A stretch of DNA of 7,325 bases, taken from positions 1-7,325 of the forward strand of contig JACMQP010000296.1 in NCBI GenBank assembly GCA_014376915.1. Reading direction: 5' to 3'. Below are positions 1 to 7,325 of this stretch, in pieces. Source of the DNA: Ramlibacter sp. GTDB lineage: Bacteria > Pseudomonadota > Gammaproteobacteria > Burkholderiales > Burkholderiaceae. The notes beneath the pieces are model-generated. The model searched no databases. It was not told where the DNA came from and was given only the letters and a program-made list of their open reading frames with translations. Numbering within the stretch: the stretch's first letter is position 1; the number at the start of each line of letters is the position of its first letter. A program made the translations under genes and the position numbers.

Positions 1-549
1 CGCCTGCAGCGCGAACTGAAGATCACGACCGTGTATGTCACCCACGACCAGAGCGAGGCGCTGGCGCTGTCGCACCAGGTCGCGGTGATGAACCAGGGAC
101 GGATCCAGCAGATCGGTTCGCCGCGCGACATCTACGAGCGGCCCCAGAACCAGTTCGTCGCCGACTTCGTCGGATCGACCAATTTCCTCGATGGCATCGT
201 GCGAAGCAAGGAAGCCGAAGCGGACTGCTACATCATCGAGACCGAGCTCGGCCCGCTGCGCTCGCAATCGGTCGAGCCGGTGCAGGCGGGCGACAAGGTG
301 GTGCTGTCGATCCGGCCCGAGGATGTCGAGCTGTCGGATGAGAAGCCCGCCGACGTTAGCGTGAACGCCTGGCACGCCATGGTCGACCAGAAGGTGTTTC
401 TCGGCGAAGCGATGGACTTCCGCATCAAGGTCGGCAACCGCATGCTGCTGTCGCGCGCCCATCCCTCGATCCGCACGCCGATCGGCCAGCCGATCTGGGC
501 CCGCGTCGATCCGCACAAGAGCGTCGCCATGCCGGCGGCCGGGAACTGA
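1..549 (+). CDS. ABC transporter ATP-binding protein, PotA/FbpC type, C-terminal part (5' end outside window)
   Basis: This is the C-terminal 182 residues of an importer ATPase, open in frame from the first base. It would energise uptake of a small solute from the cytoplasmic face of the inner membrane. The part seen starts just after the Walker B region. It has the H-loop (Val-Thr-His-Asp-Gln, His at codon 15), then the 'EALALS..VAVMN.GRIQQIGSP..IYE.P...FVADFVG' pattern typical of spermidine/putrescine and Fe(III) importer ATPases. From about codon 75 a TOBE-like regulatory domain follows, with an 'SIRPEDVEL' segment and a final beta-rich part. Walker A, the signature motif and Walker B lie upstream, outside the window. 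The stop is 32 bases before the ThDP-enzyme gene on the same strand, so co-transcription is likely. Cognate permeases are not visible. The substrate is not determinable from the ATPase. Confidence 0.93.
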   Translation, partial: RLQRELKITTVYVTHDQSEALALSHQVAVMNQGRIQQIGSPRDIYERPQNQFVADFVGSTNFLDGIVRSKEAEADCYIIETELGPLRSQSVEPVQAGDKVVLSIRPEDVELSDEKPADVSVNAWHAMVDQKVFLGEAMDFRIKVGNRMLLSRAHPSIRTPIGQPIWARVDPHKSVAMPAAGN

Positions 550-581: not shown

Positions 582-2378
582 ATGTCCAAAGACGAATTTT
601 CCCGGGTGGCGAAGCCCAAGAAGACGCCTGTCGCGATCAAGCCCAAGGAGCACTGGGGCGCCGACGTCATCGTCGACCTGCTGCACCGTTACCAGCTTCC
701 CTACGCGGCGTTGAATCCCGGCGCCAGTTACCGCGGGCTGCACGATTCCATCGTCAACTACGGTGGCAACATGCCGGTGATGATGCTGTGCCAGCACGAG
801 GAGACGGCGGTGCAGATCGCCCACGGCTACGGCAAGGCCAGCGGCAAGCCGATGGTGGCGATCCTGCACAACCTGGTGGGACTGCTGCACGCCAACATGG
901 CCGTGTACTACGCCTACATCGACCGTGCGCCGATCTTCATCGTCGGCGCCACCGGCCCGATGGATGAAACCAAACGCCGTCCGAGGATCGACTGGATCCA
1001 CTCGGCGCAGTCGCAGGGCGCGGCCATCCGCGACTACACCAAGTGGGACTACCAGCCGACCACGGTGGAAGGCGTGCCCGAAGCGTTCGCCCGCGCCTAT
1101 TCGGTGATGATGAGCGAGCCGCGCGGCCCGGTCTACATGTGCTACGACGCCTGGCTGCAGGAAAAGCAGCTTGAGCATCCGGTGCCGCTGCCGCCGAAAA
1201 CCTTCCAGACGGTGCCAGCGCCGATCGCGCCCGATCCGGCGGCGCTGGCCCGGGCGGCCGACACGCTCGTCGCCGCCAAGCGGCCGGTGATCCTGACCGA
1301 ATACGTGGGCCGCGACCCGAAAGGCTTCGAAGCGCTGGTCAAGCTGGCGGAGGCCCTCGGCGCCCCGGTGTACGACCTCAACATGCGGCTGAGTTTCCCC
1401 GGCTGCCATCCGCTGAACCTGAGCATGTCGAAAGACATCTTCCGTGACGCCGACGTGGTGCTGTGCCTGGACGTGCGTGACTGGGAGCGCCCGACCACCA
1501 CGCTGACCAGCACCACGCGCGAGCTGGTCAGCCTGGTGCCCAAGAAATGCCAATGGATCGACATCGGTTTCGGTGACATGAACATTTCGGCCTGGGCGAT
1601 GGATTACCAGCGCTTTCTCTACGCCGACCAGCGCATCGTGGCGGACACCACCGTGGCCATTCCCGCGCTGACTGCCTTGCTCAAGCAGCGTGCGCGCAAG
1701 GACCAGCCCTTTGTCGCCCGCGTCGCCAAACGTGGTGCTGCCACCGGCCGCAAGCATGCAGCCCTGCGCGCGCAGTGGGCTGCCGAAGCCAAAGTCGACT
1801 GGGACGCCAGCCCGATCACGCTACCCCGCCTGGCCAGCGAAGTGTGGGACGCGATCAAGGACGAGGACTGGGTCCTCACCGCCGGCACCCTCGAGGAGTG
1901 GACGCGCAAGCTGTGGGATTTCGACCAGCCGCACCGGCATGCCGGCAAGTCGCTGGGCACCGCGACGCAATTCGGCATTTCACTGGGCGTGGCGCTGGCG
2001 CACCGCGGCCAGGGCCGGCTGGTGGTGGACATGCAGCCGGACGGCGACCTGATGTTCGACGCCGGCGCGCTGTGGGTGGCGGCCAAACACAAGATCCCGA
2101 TGCTGGTGGTGATGTTCAACAACCGCGCCTACTTCAACGACTGGGAGCACCAGATCCGCATGGCCAAACAGCGCGGCACGCCGGTGGATCGCGCCTACAT
2201 CGGCATGGACCTGGACGACCCGCCGCCCGACTTCGCCACGCTGGCGCGTTCCATGGGCTGGTATGCCGAGGGCCCGATCGACCAGCCCGGCGACATCGCC
2301 GCCGCGTTGAAGCGCGCGATCGCCGAGGTCAAGGCCGGGCGGCCCGCGCTGCTCGACACCATCACGCAGAAACGTTGA
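582..2378 (+). CDS. Thiamine-diphosphate-dependent enzyme, acetolactate synthase/decarboxylase superfamily
   Basis: This 598-residue protein has the three-domain plan of ThDP enzymes acting on 2-oxoacids (carboligases or decarboxylases; cytoplasmic). The pyrimidine-binding domain spans about 25-195 and holds the catalytic Glu in Gln-His-Glu (E73), followed by 'HGYGKASGKP' and 'APIFIVGATGP'. A central Rossmann-like domain spans about 215-360 and starts near 'AADTLVAAKRPVIL'. The pyrophosphate-binding domain spans about 415-595, with D487-G488 and N513-N514 at the spacing of the GDG...NN Mg/ThDP motif. The first Gly of GDG is Pro (P486), which is uncommon. The sequence 'DGDLMFDAGALW' resembles family members annotated only as 'thiamine pyrophosphate-requiring protein'. 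The ATG start is preceded only by a weak Shine-Dalgarno sequence; no in-frame alternative start lies between it and the upstream stop. It sits between a transporter gene and a dehydrogenase gene, so a catabolic role is inferred. The exact reaction is unknown. Confidence 0.93.
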   Translation: MSKDEFSRVAKPKKTPVAIKPKEHWGADVIVDLLHRYQLPYAALNPGASYRGLHDSIVNYGGNMPVMMLCQHEETAVQIAHGYGKASGKPMVAILHNLVGLLHANMAVYYAYIDRAPIFIVGATGPMDETKRRPRIDWIHSAQSQGAAIRDYTKWDYQPTTVEGVPEAFARAYSVMMSEPRGPVYMCYDAWLQEKQLEHPVPLPPKTFQTVPAPIAPDPAALARAADTLVAAKRPVILTEYVGRDPKGFEALVKLAEALGAPVYDLNMRLSFPGCHPLNLSMSKDIFRDADVVLCLDVRDWERPTTTLTSTTRELVSLVPKKCQWIDIGFGDMNISAWAMDYQRFLYADQRIVADTTVAIPALTALLKQRARKDQPFVARVAKRGAATGRKHAALRAQWAAEAKVDWDASPITLPRLASEVWDAIKDEDWVLTAGTLEEWTRKLWDFDQPHRHAGKSLGTATQFGISLGVALAHRGQGRLVVDMQPDGDLMFDAGALWVAAKHKIPMLVVMFNNRAYFNDWEHQIRMAKQRGTPVDRAYIGMDLDDPPPDFATLARSMGWYAEGPIDQPGDIAAALKRAIAEVKAGRPALLDTITQKR

Positions 2379-2388
2379 GCGGAACAGC

Positions 2389-3201
2389 ATGAATCCAACC
2401 GTCGGCGTCATCGGAGCAGGGCGCATGGGCGCGCCGATCATCGGCCACCTGGTGCGCAAAGGCTTTGAAACCCATGCCTGTGACGTCAATCCCGCGCGCC
2501 AGGCGCTGGTCAGCGGTCACGCGGCAAAGTGGGCCGGCGACGCAGCCACGCTGGCGCCCCTGTGCGATGTGATCCTGGTCTGTGTCGGCTTCGATGCCGA
2601 GGTGCGCCGCCTGCTGGCCGAAGGCGGAGCGCTGCGTTGCGCCCGCGCGGGCACCATCGTGGCCATCCTCAGCACCGTTCATCCCGACACGATCAAAGAA
2701 CTGGCGGTCCAGGCGGAGCCGTACGGCGTGCATGTCGTCGACTCCACCGTCTGCCGCGGCGGCGAGGCGGCCGACCAGGGCACGCTGCTGTCTTTCGTGG
2801 GCGGCGAGGCCGAGGTCGTCGCCCGCCTGATGCCGGTCTTGAAGGCGTACTCGGCCGACGTCGTCCATACCGGCGGTATCGGCACGGCCCAGGTCGCCAA
2901 GGCCGTCAACAACCTGATTCTCTGGGCTTGCCTGGTGGCCGACCACGAAGGGCTGGCGCTGGCACAGCACCATGGGGTCGATATCGAGGCGCTGCGCAAG
3001 GCTCTGTTGCTGTCAAGTTGCACCAATGGCCCGCTGGAGAAGTGGGGCACCCAGACCATGGCCTGGGCCGAGGATGACATGGCCATCGTCGGCGAGATGG
3101 CGGCCCAGGCCGGCATCTCCATGCCCCAGGCGGGCGTTAACCGCGAAGTGTGCCGCGCGCTCAAACCCAAACGCTACCAACTGGAACTCTATGGACGCTA
3201 A
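2389..3201 (+). CDS. NAD(P)-dependent beta-hydroxyacid dehydrogenase (3-hydroxyisobutyrate dehydrogenase-like)
   Basis: This 270-residue cytoplasmic oxidoreductase should interconvert a 3-hydroxy acid and its semialdehyde or oxo form. The N-terminal Rossmann fold starts with Gly-Ala-Gly-Arg-Met-Gly (9-14). Asp32 at the end of strand 2 ('CDVN') favours NAD over NADP, by analogy with the family. The substrate loop is 'DSTVCRGG' (118-125), where the family consensus is DAPVSGG, and is followed by 'GTLLSFVGG'. The catalytic Lys is K171 in 'AKAVNNLI', with N174 and N175. The fourth conserved motif, usually Lys-Asp-Leu, reads Asp-Asp-Met (229-231). The protein is about 20 residues shorter than typical members. 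It begins 10 bases after the ThDP-enzyme stop, with GGAA at 2381-2384 as ribosome binding site, and its last 11 bases overlap the next gene. The product of the ThDP enzyme could be its substrate, but this is inference. Confidence 0.92.
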   Translation: MNPTVGVIGAGRMGAPIIGHLVRKGFETHACDVNPARQALVSGHAAKWAGDAATLAPLCDVILVCVGFDAEVRRLLAEGGALRCARAGTIVAILSTVHPDTIKELAVQAEPYGVHVVDSTVCRGGEAADQGTLLSFVGGEAEVVARLMPVLKAYSADVVHTGGIGTAQVAKAVNNLILWACLVADHEGLALAQHHGVDIEALRKALLLSSCTNGPLEKWGTQTMAWAEDDMAIVGEMAAQAGISMPQAGVNREVCRALKPKRYQLELYGR

Positions 3202-3793
3202 AGACAAACCGGCAGGCGCGCAGCCCGCAGCCGTTGCCACCCCCAACGAATCCCACTATCACAGCAAGAAGGACCGCGTCTTCGTGCGCGGCATCCAGGG
3301 CCAGTACAGCATGAAGGAGGAGCTCGAGCGCCTGCGCGCCATGCCGCGCGTGCGCAAGGGCTCGGAGATCAAGTTCAACGACGGCCCGCAGGCCTTCAGC
3401 CGGCATTACGTCGAGCCCAAGGACGGCATTACGCAGACCTTCCACCTGCACCTCGAAGAATACGGGCCGGGCGGCAAGTCGCAAAAGCACGGCCACGTCA
3501 ACGAAGCGGCTTTCTACATCCTGGACGGCGAGGGCTACGAGATCCACGACGGCGTGCGCTACGACTGGAAGGCCGGCGACATCGCGATCGTCCACAACAA
3601 CTGCGTGCACCAGCACTTCAACGCCAGCGACAGCAAGCCGGCGCGGGCGCTGGTGATCAAGAGCAAGCCGATGTACATGTTCATGAACATGCTGTTCCAG
3701 CAACAGGTGGAGCCGCGTTCCAGCGTCGCGGCGCCCGGCGGCGAAAACTTCCAGGTGCGCGAAGCGGAAGACAACTACAACCACGGCGACTGA
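3191..3793 (+). CDS. Single-domain cupin protein (type A: HxH kept, Glu lost)
   Basis: This is a 200-residue single-domain cupin. Motif 1 lies at about 92-113: H100-x-H102 are present, but the position of the canonical Glu is A106 (E105 sits one residue earlier). The motif ends in Gly-Glu-Gly. Motif 2 is 'WKAGDIAIVHNNCVHQHFN', giving H140, H142 and N144. Three His metal ligands are therefore available without the Glu. An extension of about 70 residues precedes the barrel and a tail of about 50 residues follows it; neither looks like a signal peptide or membrane segment, so it should be cytoplasmic. The reading frame is open upstream to 2972, but ATG 3191 is chosen because anything longer would lie inside the dehydrogenase gene. 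GGAA at 3183-3186 can serve as ribosome binding site. The gene overlaps the dehydrogenase gene by 11 bases. Function is unknown: cupins of this shape include dioxygenases, isomerases and decarboxylases. Confidence 0.88.
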   Translation: MDAKDKPAGAQPAAVATPNESHYHSKKDRVFVRGIQGQYSMKEELERLRAMPRVRKGSEIKFNDGPQAFSRHYVEPKDGITQTFHLHLEEYGPGGKSQKHGHVNEAAFYILDGEGYEIHDGVRYDWKAGDIAIVHNNCVHQHFNASDSKPARALVIKSKPMYMFMNMLFQQQVEPRSSVAAPGGENFQVREAEDNYNHGD

Positions 3794-3801
3794 CCGAACA
3801 T

Positions 3802-3808
3802 GGAGAAG
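3802..3808 (+). promoter_or_regulatory. Ribosome binding site for the second cupin gene
   Basis: GGAGAAG lies 4 bases before ATG 3813 (the GGAG core is 7 bases away). It is the clearest Shine-Dalgarno sequence in the operon-like part of the window and fixes the start of the second cupin gene. Confidence 0.75.
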
Positions 3809-3812
3809 CAAT

Positions 3813-4460
3813 ATGGCATGGAGTGAATCGAAGGCGTGGCTGCAGGGCAGCGCGCAGCAGAACCTGTACCAGCAGCTGCTGGACGACGCGGCCAGCGCGC
3901 CGGCGCGCAACGCCAGGCGCAAGAAGGTTGTCACACCGGGCGACATGCCCTGGGAGATGTCGCGCCAGGGCCTGCTCAAGCACCTGTTGAACGAGGGCAT
4001 GAACACGCGCATGGAAACGGTCGATGCGTTCATGCTGCTCGTGCCGCCGGGCAGCCGGTCCGGCAAGCGCCGCCAGCTGGCCGAGGAATGCCTGTACGTG
4101 CTGGAAGGCCGCGGCTATGACCTGCACCAGGACTGCGACGTCGAAATCACCGACACCTACCACTGGAAGCCGCAGGACGAAATCAAGCGCTACGAGTGGG
4201 AAGCGGGGGACGTGATCTACATCCCGCCGAACACCATTCACCAGCATTTCAACGCCAGCGCCGACCAGCCGGTGCGGCTGATCTCGGCCGTCAACCGGAT
4301 CTTCAAGGCCTGCGGGCTGAACGACCTGGAGCAGATTGAAGATGCGCCTGAATACCGTCCCGACATGGTGGTGACGCCCGAGATGGTGGCCGCCTACCTG
4401 CGCGGCGCGCAGCGCCAGGACGGCAAATCGACATCCCTTCCCCAGCCGGTGACCCAATGA
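3813..4460 (+). CDS. Single-domain cupin protein (type B: HxH lost, Glu kept)
   Basis: This is a 215-residue single-domain cupin. Motif 1 reads 'RRQLAEECLYVLEGRG' (86-101): the two motif-1 His positions are R86 and Q88, while the Glu (E92) is kept, and the motif ends in Gly-Arg-Gly. A long inter-motif loop (about 102-128) carries several acidic and His residues. Motif 2 is 'AGDVIYIPPNTIHQHFN' with H143, H145 and N147. With two standard ligands missing, metal binding is doubtful or would need the spare H145 or a partner chain. An N-terminal basic stretch 'ARNARRKK' (31-38) precedes a helix-like region. There is no signal peptide. The gene starts 19 bases after the first cupin stop, and its stop overlaps the next start in an ATGA junction. 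It most resembles the N-terminal module of the following gene. Function is unknown; pairing with the type A cupin is inferred. Confidence 0.9.
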   Translation: MAWSESKAWLQGSAQQNLYQQLLDDAASAPARNARRKKVVTPGDMPWEMSRQGLLKHLLNEGMNTRMETVDAFMLLVPPGSRSGKRRQLAEECLYVLEGRGYDLHQDCDVEITDTYHWKPQDEIKRYEWEAGDVIYIPPNTIHQHFNASADQPVRLISAVNRIFKACGLNDLEQIEDAPEYRPDMVVTPEMVAAYLRGAQRQDGKSTSLPQPVTQ

Positions 4461-5629
4461 ACAACGACAACAGCAAGAACGCCCTGGTCTCAGACGCCAT
4501 CGCCAAGAAATTCGAAACCGAGAAGGCCACGCCCTACACCCGCTGGATCGCGGCCGAGGGGCTGGACATCATCGACGCGATGTACGTCCCCAACCTGCAC
4601 ACCGTTGACCTCAAGCCCTGGGCACGGCGCGGTGGTCGCGGCGTGTACCTGAACCACGATGCCTCGCGGACGTCGAACGACTGCTACGTCTGCGAGATCC
4701 CGCCCGGCAAGCAGCTGGCGCCGCAGCGGCAGCTCTACGAGGAAATGATCTATGTGCTGGACGGCCGCGGCTCGACCAGCGTCTGGAGCGACTCCGGCCA
4801 GAAGGTCAGCTTCGAGTGGAAGGCGGGGGCCATCTTCGCCATCCCGCTGAACACCAGCCACCAGCACTTCAACGGTTCCGGCAAGGAGGCGGCGCGCTTC
4901 GTTTCGGTGACCAACGCGCCGGTCATCATCAATTCGTTCGGCGACACCGACTTCGTGTTTGGGACCCAGCACGACTTCAAGAACCGGTTCGCCGGCGAGA
5001 GCAACTACTTCGCCAACGGCGGTGAGCAGAAGGGGCTGTTGCTGGACACCAACTTTGTCGCCGACGCAATCAACCTGCCGCTGATTCCCGCCAAGGAGCG
5101 GGGCGCCGGCGGCGGCCACATCCGCTTCAGCATGGCCAAAGGCAGCATGAACAGCCACATCTCGCAATTTCCGATCGGCACCTACAAGAAGGCCCATGCC
5201 CATGGCCCGGGCGCGCACGTGATCGTGATGAGCGGCGAAGGCTTCAGCCTGATGTGGCCCGAAGGCGAAGAGCCCAGGCGCTTCGAGTGGAAGGAGGGCA
5301 CCCTGATCGTGCCGCCCAACATGTGGTTCCACCAGCACTTCAACACCGGAACAACACCGGCACGCTACCTGGCGTTCAAGGCTGAAGGCGTTTCGATCCG
5401 CAACGCGCAGGGCGTTCCCAAGGCCTGGATCAGCCGCCGGGTCGGTGGTGACCAGATCGACTACGCCGACGAGGCCCCCCGGATTCGGGAGACGTTCACG
5501 GCAGCGCTGGCCAGGACCGGCCTGGCGCCGCGCATGGACGAGGCCTATCGGGCCGAACTGGCGGACCTGCCGCCGGTCCGGCCGGCATCCGGGACGACAC
5601 GCATTGACAGTCTTGCGGACGCTTCATAA
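4457..5629 (+). CDS. Bicupin protein (type B module fused to type A module)
   Basis: This 390-residue protein has two cupin modules. In the N-terminal module (about 75-150), motif 1 is 'QRQLYEEMIYVLDGRG', so the His positions are Q90 and Q92 and E96 is kept; motif 2 gives H135, H137 and N139. In the C-terminal module (about 225-310), motif 1 is 'HAHGPGAHVIVMSGEG', so H247 and H249 are kept and the Glu position is A253; motif 2 gives H292, H294 and N296. By ligand count, only the C-terminal module looks competent for classical three-His metal binding. The overall plan recalls bicupin ring-cleavage dioxygenases (gentisate or hydroxynaphthoate type), but their diagnostic residues are not recognised here. 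The start is in an ATGA overlap with the previous gene and no Shine-Dalgarno sequence is visible, which suggests translational coupling. The final bases carry the promoter of the next gene. Substrate unknown. Confidence 0.9.
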   Translation: MNNDNSKNALVSDAIAKKFETEKATPYTRWIAAEGLDIIDAMYVPNLHTVDLKPWARRGGRGVYLNHDASRTSNDCYVCEIPPGKQLAPQRQLYEEMIYVLDGRGSTSVWSDSGQKVSFEWKAGAIFAIPLNTSHQHFNGSGKEAARFVSVTNAPVIINSFGDTDFVFGTQHDFKNRFAGESNYFANGGEQKGLLLDTNFVADAINLPLIPAKERGAGGGHIRFSMAKGSMNSHISQFPIGTYKKAHAHGPGAHVIVMSGEGFSLMWPEGEEPRRFEWKEGTLIVPPNMWFHQHFNTGTTPARYLAFKAEGVSIRNAQGVPKAWISRRVGGDQIDYADEAPRIRETFTAALARTGLAPRMDEAYRAELADLPPVRPASGTTRIDSLADAS

Positions 5630-5726: not shown

Positions 5727-6947
5727 ATGAAACTGAGGAACATTCCCCTGGCCGTCGCAGTCGGTGCCATCCTGGCGGCACCCGTTGCCATGGCGCAAAG
5801 CTCAGTGCAGATCTACGGCAAGCTTTATCCGTATTTACTGGACGAGAAGGGCTCCGGCGCCACCGAGAAAGGCGCAACCGTCTCCACGCTGGCGGCCACA
5901 CCCACCGGAGAAGGCGGCGTGAGTCGCGTGCGCGGCATGGTTTCCGGTAATTCGCGCCTCGGCTTCCGTGGTCAGGAAGACCTGGGCGGTGGGTTGAATG
6001 CGGTTTTCCAGCTTGAAGGAGTTGCCTCCGTTGACGACGGCACCGGCGCCGCGGCCGGCGGCGGCTTCATGTTCAACCGCAACACCTACGTCGGCCTGGA
6101 AGACAAACGATTCGGCTCACTGCAACTCGGCGTCAACGACACCATCCTGAAGAACTACGGCGACACCATTGGTTTGCTTGGCGTCAGCAGCGGCACCTTC
6201 ATGTCGACCAGCAGCGTGTTCCGCAAGGCCGGCTTCGGACCCAGTTCGGCCTCCAGCTTCCACCTGCGCCGGGCCAACTCGGTGACTTATGAAACACCCG
6301 AGTTCGGCGGCGTCACGGGCGGAATCCAGTGGTCGACCGACGAGGCCAAGACCGAGATCCGCGATCCGCGGGTGCTGTCGATGGGCGTCAAGTACGACAA
6401 CGGCCCGTTCTACGTGGCGCTGGCCCACGAGATTCACTACGACCTGTACGGCGGTTCGCGCAATGTGCCGACGGCGCAGCGCAACAACGGTGCGACGGAC
6501 CCCACCCGCTCCAAGGACCGGGCCACGCAGTTCACGGTCGAGTGGCGGATGAACAAGCAGCACAAGTTCGAATTCGATGCGATCCGCAAGGAATACAGCG
6601 AAAACGCTGCGACTGCCGGCCGCTTCAGTTCCTACCGGAACATGGCGTATTTGCTGGCGATGGAGAACCGCTGGAGCGACCAGTGGCGCACCTCGGCCCA
6701 TTACGTCATGGCGACGGCCGGCAACTGCACCCGGGTTGCGGCGGCATGTACGACCGATGGCCTGGAAGGCAAGAAGGTCACTGTCGGCGCCGCCTACTAC
6801 CTGAGCAAGCGGACCTATCTGTTCTCGGCTGCCAGCCGAATCACGAACGGCAAGTCGGCCCGCTTCAGCAACGCGGAACTCGGAGGCGCGCCGACCCCCG
6901 GCGAGGACCTCACGCACTTTGCGATCGGCCTCTCGCACAGTTTCTGA
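5727..6947 (+). CDS. Gram-negative outer-membrane porin (Omp32-like, betaproteobacterial family)
   Basis: This 406-residue precursor of a trimeric 16-strand porin allows diffusion of small solutes across the outer membrane. Residues 1-23 form a Sec signal peptide (basic Lys-Leu-Arg start, hydrophobic core, Ala-Met-Ala then Gln). The mature N terminus 'SSVQIYGKLYPYL' is the usual first strand. Family hallmarks follow: 'SRLGFRGQEDLGGGLNAVFQLE' in shorter blocks near 75-95, 'FNRNTYVGLEDKRFGSLQLG' near 114-133, and 'NSVTYETPEFGGVTGG' near 181-196. The C-terminal strand ends 'IGLSHSF', the terminal Phe being the signal for outer-membrane assembly. Two cysteines (C334 and C341), likely in a surface loop, are uncommon in porins and could form a disulfide. 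It has its own promoter and leader. Its position next to catabolic and transport genes suggests that it admits their substrate. Confidence 0.95.
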   Translation: MKLRNIPLAVAVGAILAAPVAMAQSSVQIYGKLYPYLLDEKGSGATEKGATVSTLAATPTGEGGVSRVRGMVSGNSRLGFRGQEDLGGGLNAVFQLEGVASVDDGTGAAAGGGFMFNRNTYVGLEDKRFGSLQLGVNDTILKNYGDTIGLLGVSSGTFMSTSSVFRKAGFGPSSASSFHLRRANSVTYETPEFGGVTGGIQWSTDEAKTEIRDPRVLSMGVKYDNGPFYVALAHEIHYDLYGGSRNVPTAQRNNGATDPTRSKDRATQFTVEWRMNKQHKFEFDAIRKEYSENAATAGRFSSYRNMAYLLAMENRWSDQWRTSAHYVMATAGNCTRVAAACTTDGLEGKKVTVGAAYYLSKRTYLFSAASRITNGKSARFSNAELGGAPTPGEDLTHFAIGLSHSF

Positions 6948-7028: not shown

Positions 7029-7325
7029 ATGAATACGGCAGTCCTTTTCGATCCGCTGCGCCGCCAGCTCATGGCGGCCTCGCTGGGGACTCTCGCCACG
7101 ACCGGTTCCTGGGCCCAGGACACGGCAGCGCGCAACCGCGAGGTCTACCTGTACAAAGGCGGCGACCGCGAAGCGAAGTTGCTTGAGGGCGCCAGGAAAG
7201 AGGGCCCGGTCAACATCTACACCTCGCTCAACACGCGCGATTCAGGGCCCATCACCGAAGCTTTCGAGAAGAAATACGGTGTCAAGACCCTGTTGTGGCG
7301 CTCCAGTTCCGAGAAGGTGCTGCAA
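7029..7325 (+). CDS. ABC transporter extracellular solute-binding protein, N-terminal part (3' end outside window)
   Basis: The first 99 residues are present. A signal peptide spans about 1-29: two adjacent Arg (R11, R12) in 'LRRQLMAAS', a hydrophobic stretch, and a Ser-Trp-Ala cleavage site before Gln-Asp. The twin Arg followed by x-Leu-Met resembles a Tat signal, though a Sec signal is also possible. The mature part 'REAKLLEGARKEGPVNIYTSL', read in two parts around residue 50, then 'PITEAFEKKYGVKTLLWRSSSEKVLQ', read likewise, matches the start of the Fe(III)/polyamine-type periplasmic binding proteins (AfuA/FbpA/PotD superfamily). This protein would capture a substrate in the periplasm for an ABC importer. 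The 81-base gap after the porin has no clear promoter, so read-through from the porin promoter is possible. Whether it partners with the ATPase at the window start is unknown. Confidence 0.88.
   Translation, partial: MNTAVLFDPLRRQLMAASLGTLATTGSWAQDTAARNREVYLYKGGDREAKLLEGARKEGPVNIYTSLNTRDSGPITEAFEKKYGVKTLLWRSSSEKVLQ

Follow-up and report, generated by a model that had tools for sequence, protein, structure and literature searches.

The window analysed here is the whole 7,325-nt stretch of Ramlibacter sp. contig JACMQP010000296.1. All of its genes lie on the + strand in one operon-like run, and three consecutive cupin genes occupy its centre. Gene A (3191..3793, +) encodes a single-cupin protein of 200 amino acids (aa) and gene B (3813..4460, +) a single-cupin protein of 215 aa. 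The third gene (4457..5629, +) encodes a bicupin of 390 aa and starts inside the gene B stop, with a 4-base overlap; its N-terminal half (4457..5041) is B-type and its C-terminal half (5042..5626) A-type. All three proteins matched Pfam Cupin_2 (PF07883), with 55.1, 38.6 and 49.2 bits against a cut-off of 27.2. An initial annotation had described a complementary loss of metal ligands among the four modules, Glu being lost from the A modules and the His pair from the B modules. Every residue it named was found at its position in the window translations, and its interpretation proved half right: the A-type sites are constant among homologues, and it is gene B that loses ligands, repeatedly.

Gene A contains H100-G-H102, E105, A106, G113-E114-G115 and H140-Q-H142-F-N144, with the codons of H100, H102, A106 and H140 at 3488-3490, 3494-3496, 3506-3508 and 3608-3610. 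Homologue rows for the three cupins were the window, the 120 best of 5703, 5031 and 2147 database matches, and public loci, a sample that leans to close relatives. These loci were the best 80 of 322 found and came from Beta-, Alpha- and Gammaproteobacteria, Acidobacteria and one acidimicrobiial metagenome-assembled genome; gene calling in them was greedy, and some cupins were missed. H100, H102, A106, H140, H142 and N144 were invariant in all 188 gene A rows. E105 was rejected as a shifted or hidden Glu ligand, being Ser in three distant homologues that retain A106 and the His set.

The gene A profile aligned with gentisate 1,2-dioxygenase 3bu7 (E 9.5e-14), His pair on His pair and motif-2 HxH on HxH, and the two barrels of 3bu7 have Ala or Val at the Glu position in this alignment. 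A106 faces Ala125 of salicylate dioxygenase, in an alignment that is weak for that protein. Of the active-site residues, 5-nitrosalicylate dioxygenase retains only the counterparts of Arg83, Gly106, Gln108 and Ala125, the last as Ala102 (PMC10306065, in excerpt), and a 3-His centre is the usual one for this dioxygenase class (review PMC4019311, in excerpt). Both gene A (188/188) and the bicupin C-half (204/204) have the three His and no Glu of the gentisate/salicylate 1,2-dioxygenase class. Ala at the Glu position is a class trait of 3-His cupin dioxygenases, and the A modules have therefore lost no ligand.

In the bicupin, the C-half reads H247-A-H249, A253, G260-E-G262 and H292-Q-H294-F-N296, and H247, H249, A253, H292, H294 and N296 were invariant in the 204 bicupin rows. 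Five distant bicupins (30-37% identity) keep H247, H249, H292 and H294, with Ala at residue 253 in four and Thr in one. The N-half reads Q90-R-Q92, E95, E96, G103-R-G105 and H135-Q-H137-F-N139. Its full QxQ/EE/HxHxN pattern occurred in 178 of the 204 rows; the other 26 deviate at one position or more, most often by Cys for the motif-2 His (13 rows). In the five distant paralogues, the second His of the N-half pair is still present (as xKH or xRH); E96 and H135 are retained in four and both missing from the fifth. Retention of this second His suggests that the pair was lost early in the N-half, before the loss in gene B. Structural models were made of the bicupin and of gene B. In the bicupin model (pLDDT 85), the Glu and Ala positions both lie 7 residues before the motif Gly and at or beside a strand start, E96 opening strand 96-102 and A253 preceding strand 254-259. 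A misalignment of these positions, the other possibility raised initially, is thereby answered.

A second bicupin of the distant kind (30-37% identity, five aligned) was observed beside another EutA-like gene, often with an alpha/beta hydrolase gene, in Limnohabitans-like loci (L041, L054, L063, L069) and in Hyphomicrobiales loci.

Gene B of the window contains R86-R-Q88, E91, E92, G99-R-G101 and H143-Q-H145-F-N147. R86 and Q88 (codons 4068-4070 and 4074-4076) replace HxH, and E92 (4086-4088) and H143 (4239-4241) are kept, which leaves a partly lost metal site. The RxQ is common to the nearest gene B rows (P0121-P0124, P0126, P0127) and is therefore no sequencing error; the RxQ/H set also occurs in another clade, made up of nine rows. 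In a first tally of 173 rows, one of them all gaps, the window's RxQ/EE/H was found in only 16 rows and the full HxH/EE/H in 96. The gene B tree comprised 179 rows and left out the ligand columns, the short pieces L011 and L032, and P0152, an apparent A-B fusion whose joint reads frameshifted and is probably an artefact. HxH+E+H was complete in 103 of the 179 rows, and all seven outgroup rows were complete (38-41% identity for the six aligned).

The tree was a quick one, 77 of its 174 inner branches being weak, and changes were counted on it by minimum parsimony. For the three His columns the minimum was 5, 6 and 14 changes (5, 6 and 9 for His versus non-His only), with at least 7 switches between complete and incomplete sites. 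E92 was Glu in 179/179 rows, and R87, L89, E91, E92, Q144, H145 and N147 showed no change in the ingroup. Neighbouring residues that did change there were K85 (12 times), I142 (7), F146 (3) and A90 (once), and R100, the middle of Gly-Arg-Gly, changed 16 times. The median over residues 40-189 was 2 changes and the mean 7.08. In variability the His columns stand between the conserved half of the protein, which changes less, and its loose parts, which change more, as expected of ligands no longer constrained in a barrel that remains necessary. The loss is thus lineage-specific: B has been freed from metal binding, with its barrel kept.

The idea of complementary loss fails on both sides: A keeps the usual 3-His site, and the loss of the His pair in gene B is no family rule. 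Random ligand loss among homologues, which had been set against the initial reading from the outset, was found in gene B and in part in the N-half (178/204), and neither in gene A nor in the C-half. Two shared motifs survive for the window only. The Gly-Glu-Gly and Gly-Arg-Gly endings are present there, but their middle residue varies among homologues (GDG, GKG and GTG in gene A) and is no class signature; likewise, HQHFN is identical in the four window modules, but 59 of the 179 gene B rows have Ser, Gln, Thr or Asn in place of its first His (H143).

By profile comparison, gene A is nearest to gene B (E 1.3e-24) and not to the bicupin C-half (5.6e-13), and the closest profile to the N-half is that of gene B. 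No support was found for two clean lineages, one of A and one of B modules; since gene A is closest to gene B by descent, A and B denote ligand classes. The two genes usually travel together. Gene A was found no more than 700 bp upstream of B for 54 of the 63 B genes, and the bicupin no more than 700 bp downstream of B for 39. The proposal of A as the metal site, with B as a partner needing no complete site, is supported by the constant A ligands, the varying B ligands and this pairing.

In many clusters (L010, L012, L023, L025, L027, L031, L036 and others) a second gene A (~184 aa), sometimes with a second gene B, was seen downstream of extra solute-binding proteins.

We consider it fairly probable that the three genes encode two versions of one cupin oxygenase system of the gentisate/salicylate 1,2-dioxygenase kind: the separate proteins of genes A and B, and the fused bicupin. 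Each unit would use O2 with one catalytic mononuclear metal in its A-type barrel, held by three His, the position of the Glu found in other cupins being taken by Ala. The B-type barrel would be structural or would complete the pocket, in the case of genes A and B within a putative heteromeric complex. Ancestrally, gene B would have had a full 3-His/1-Glu site, and its His ligands would have been released in several lineages, the window's included, with the barrel and the other pocket residues (R87, L89, E91, E92, Q144, H145, N147) staying fixed within the gene B group.

Comparisons with Pfam, NCBIfam and solved structures bear on this proposal. The A, B and bicupin profiles all matched gentisate dioxygenase best by sequence, and the highest VIA-align Z of the bicupin model went to gentisate/salicylate dioxygenases (20.6-19.9), with MncA and oxalate decarboxylase level with gentisate dioxygenase. 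The system resembles gentisate 1,2-dioxygenase 3bu7 of Silicibacter pomeroyi and salicylate 1,2-dioxygenase 2phd in its bicupin fold, its 3-His site, the Ala/Val at the Glu position and the second motif-2 His. One barrel of gentisate/salicylate 1,2-dioxygenases is often metal-less, according to the same excerpt (PMC10306065). Unlike in 3bu7 and 2phd, the intact barrel of the window bicupin is the C-terminal one, the second copy is split into two genes, and a Ni/Co permease lies near many relatives. The sequence match is also weak (E 9.5e-14 at best), and the NCBIfam cut-offs of TIGR02272 and NF049978 were not reached (17 to 35 bits versus 442 and 650). The counterparts of the salicylate dioxygenase substrate residues Arg127 and Gln108 in gene A are F108 and E89, both in 188/188 rows (numbers counted by hand).

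Two further enzymes are comparable in part. Gene A, a single 3-His cupin with the same Ala, is like the monocupin 5-nitrosalicylate 1,2-dioxygenase (8ch4); that enzyme is a tetramer of identical subunits, whereas gene A is usually beside gene B, and the sequence E is only 0.083. In hydroquinone 1,2-dioxygenase, a heterotetramer built from two cupin subunits, only one subunit has a working metal site, of the 2-His-1-Glu type (PMC10306065, in excerpt). Its counterpart here would be a putative heteromer of the A and B products, whose genes are paired in 54 of 63 cases. Gene A, with Ala at the Glu position, lacks a 2-His-1-Glu site, and no Pfam or NCBIfam match linked hydroquinone 1,2-dioxygenase to genes A or B. 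A division of labour between active and vestigial cupins is already a known kind of arrangement; the variation here lies in a loss in gene B that recurs and can be observed, and in how the bicupin halves are ordered. No description of the three-cupin operon or its nickel link was recognised in the titles and abstract openings of the open-licence PubMed Central papers that literature searches listed. The gene B rows form a natural series in which one cupin partner went from a complete to a broken metal site several times and the other partner's site stayed constant, a direct test of the role of the second barrel in bicupin dioxygenases.

The neighbouring genes point to a substrate. Upstream of gene A, the window encodes an ATP-binding cassette (ABC) importer ATPase (1..549, +, cut at the window start), a thiamine-diphosphate (ThDP) enzyme like acetolactate synthase or benzoylformate decarboxylase (582..2378, +), and a 3-hydroxyisobutyrate-dehydrogenase-like NAD(P) reductase (2389..3201, +), which overlaps the gene A start by 11 bases. 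The bicupin is followed by a Gram-negative porin (5727..6947, +) and the start of a periplasmic solute-binding protein (7029..7325, +, cut at the window end). This last piece had no Pfam or NCBIfam match and is named after its relatives, one representative of which matches SBP_bac families. Recurrent neighbours in the 80 loci were an ABC importer with several binding proteins, a porin, a major facilitator superfamily transporter, a ThDP enzyme and a reductase, joined by a Rieske LigXa_C oxygenase in 28 loci, an IclR regulator in 27 and an FNR-type reductase in 22. Rarer were a CobW-type GTPase (17 loci), NicO (17), NikR (11), a class II aldolase-like protein (7), HupE (3) and an RraA-like protein (1). 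We infer aromatic or heteroaromatic acid catabolism from this neighbourhood. The ThDP enzyme, reductase, ABC importer and porin, together with the Rieske oxygenases and reductases of relatives, make ring opening of an imported aromatic or heteroaromatic acid the most likely role of the system. Riboflavin catabolism has the logic of ThDP decarboxylase plus Rieske oxygenase in common with these loci; its ring cleaver is an extradiol catechol dioxygenase according to the authors (PMC12746152, in excerpt).

By family the metal would be iron; by gene neighbourhood it may be nickel or cobalt. A NicO permease lay within 20 kb of the close bicupin in 27 of 80 genomes, against 0.97 expected. For comparison, Nramp was found at this distance in 0/80 and FeoB, searched as the 14 best-scoring copies among the matches listed, which included other GTPases, in 0/32. 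These 32 genomes were hand-chosen, 12 of them with NicO, HupE or NikR known beforehand, and HupE, NikR and FeoB were sought in them; in the remaining 48, NicO and Nramp were sought, and many contigs were short. HupE near the bicupin added three further genomes of the 32, and in 22 of the 32 a bicupin-type gene had NicO, HupE or NikR within 20 kb (1.43 expected). Of the 20 genomes chosen without such prior knowledge, 10 had one of the three genes this close to a bicupin-type gene of any kind, where 1.02 were expected; for the close bicupin the figures were 8 and 0.44. The link recurred in Comamonadaceae, Oxalobacteraceae, Rhodocyclaceae (Aromatoleum), Nevskia, Caulobacter and Rhizobiales (permeases of the NicO/HupE type in, for example, L041, L042, L050, L066 and L077), and in several genomes the only NicO match was the bicupin-linked one. 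All 14 NicO proteins inspected, of the 17 loci with a match, contain HxxxxDH and three HupE proteins HPxxGxDH, which we take to be signatures of Ni/Co permeases.

EutA-like (PF06277) ATPases occurred in 52 of the 80 loci (e.g. L027:2373-4238, L041:18021-19532), and 36 of 71 such open reading frames lay within 1.5 kb of a bicupin-type one. One of these ATPases, when tested, had no sequence match among solved structures. Of 32 genomes, only 5 had EutB, in each case on a contig free of bicupin-type matches; many of the 32 are metagenome assemblies, in which absence is no proof. The name "ethanolamine ammonia lyase-activating protein", carried by the bicupin relative P0043, is therefore not borne out. 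Our guess is that the EutA-like ATPase acts as a cupin reactivase.

Together with NikR (11/80 loci) and CobW-type GTPases (17/80), these counts leave a nickel- or cobalt-dependent cupin enzyme as a possible, if tentative, alternative, with NicO/HupE for uptake, NikR for control, the CobW-type GTPase as chaperone and the EutA-like protein as reactivase. Several points weigh against it. The window itself has no NicO, HupE, NikR, CobW or EutA-like gene, and it is too short to show a NicO at the 10.3 to 13.6 kb from the bicupin seen in the close relatives L001, L002, L004 and L005. NicO was missing within 20 kb on the bicupin contig in 53 of 80 genomes, many contigs being short, and five acidobacterial genomes (L010, L018, L020, L026, L038) had no NicO match at all. 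Since the genomes are related, with 10 of the 27 NicO cases and 10 of the 11 NikR loci from one Limnohabitans-like group, a Poisson value for the link is no true probability. On the contigs of two Pusillimonas loci, no such gene was closer than a NikR at 31-34 kb. For the betaproteobacterial NicO proteins near bicupins, scores were ~26-69 bits (Pfam cut-off 27.7), and in four cases the cut-off was passed only when neighbouring pieces were included; one tested reached 41.7 bits against an NCBIfam cut-off of 333. NicO members can also export metal, and linkage is silent on which protein receives it. L001 keeps NicO although its gene B lacks two ligands, so the metal, if it serves these cupins, should sit in the A-type site; in the three other loci with a broken B (L012, L015, L019), NicO was absent from the bicupin contig.

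The permease neighbourhood hints at an unstudied metal enzyme. A wholly new nickel- (or cobalt-) dependent system, combining 3-His cupins, a NicO/HupE permease, a CobW-type chaperone, an EutA-like ATPase without EutB and a partner cupin that repeatedly loses its site with its pocket largely fixed, seems doubtful to us. Should the linkage reflect the cofactor, the few known nickel enzymes would gain one more, and an EutA-like ATPase would be connected with a non-B12 enzyme.

It is unlikely that the B modules are a separate enzyme or sensor with a pocket of their own (R87, E91, E92, H145), ancestrally metal-using and metal-free here. R87, E91, E92, H145 and N147 are constant in the ingroup through all ligand losses, as such a protein would have them, and in five Hyphomicrobiales loci B stands without A beside it. 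Auxin-binding protein 1 (1lr5), a plant protein, was the top Foldseek match of the modest gene B model (pLDDT 76, pTM 0.68); its HxHxxxE aligns with the motif of complete-site B homologues, and gene B of the window has no HxH. The usual pairing with A (54/63) and the fusion of B-type to A-type in the bicupin speak for a shared complex. That the modules are metal-dependent isomerases, decarboxylases or hydrolases in place of oxygenases is likewise improbable: gentisate dioxygenase is equalled in Z by MncA and oxalate decarboxylase, oxalate decarboxylases head the Foldseek list, and there are weak sequence matches to cupin phosphoglucose isomerase, but these enzymes retain a Glu ligand in the active site that the A modules lack, and the best sequence match of all three profiles remains gentisate dioxygenase.

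A protein of ~330-340 aa, which had no Pfam match in two members tested, was observed beside IclR, reductase and EutA-like genes in 13 loci (e.g. L027:412-1443, L039:11308-12294).

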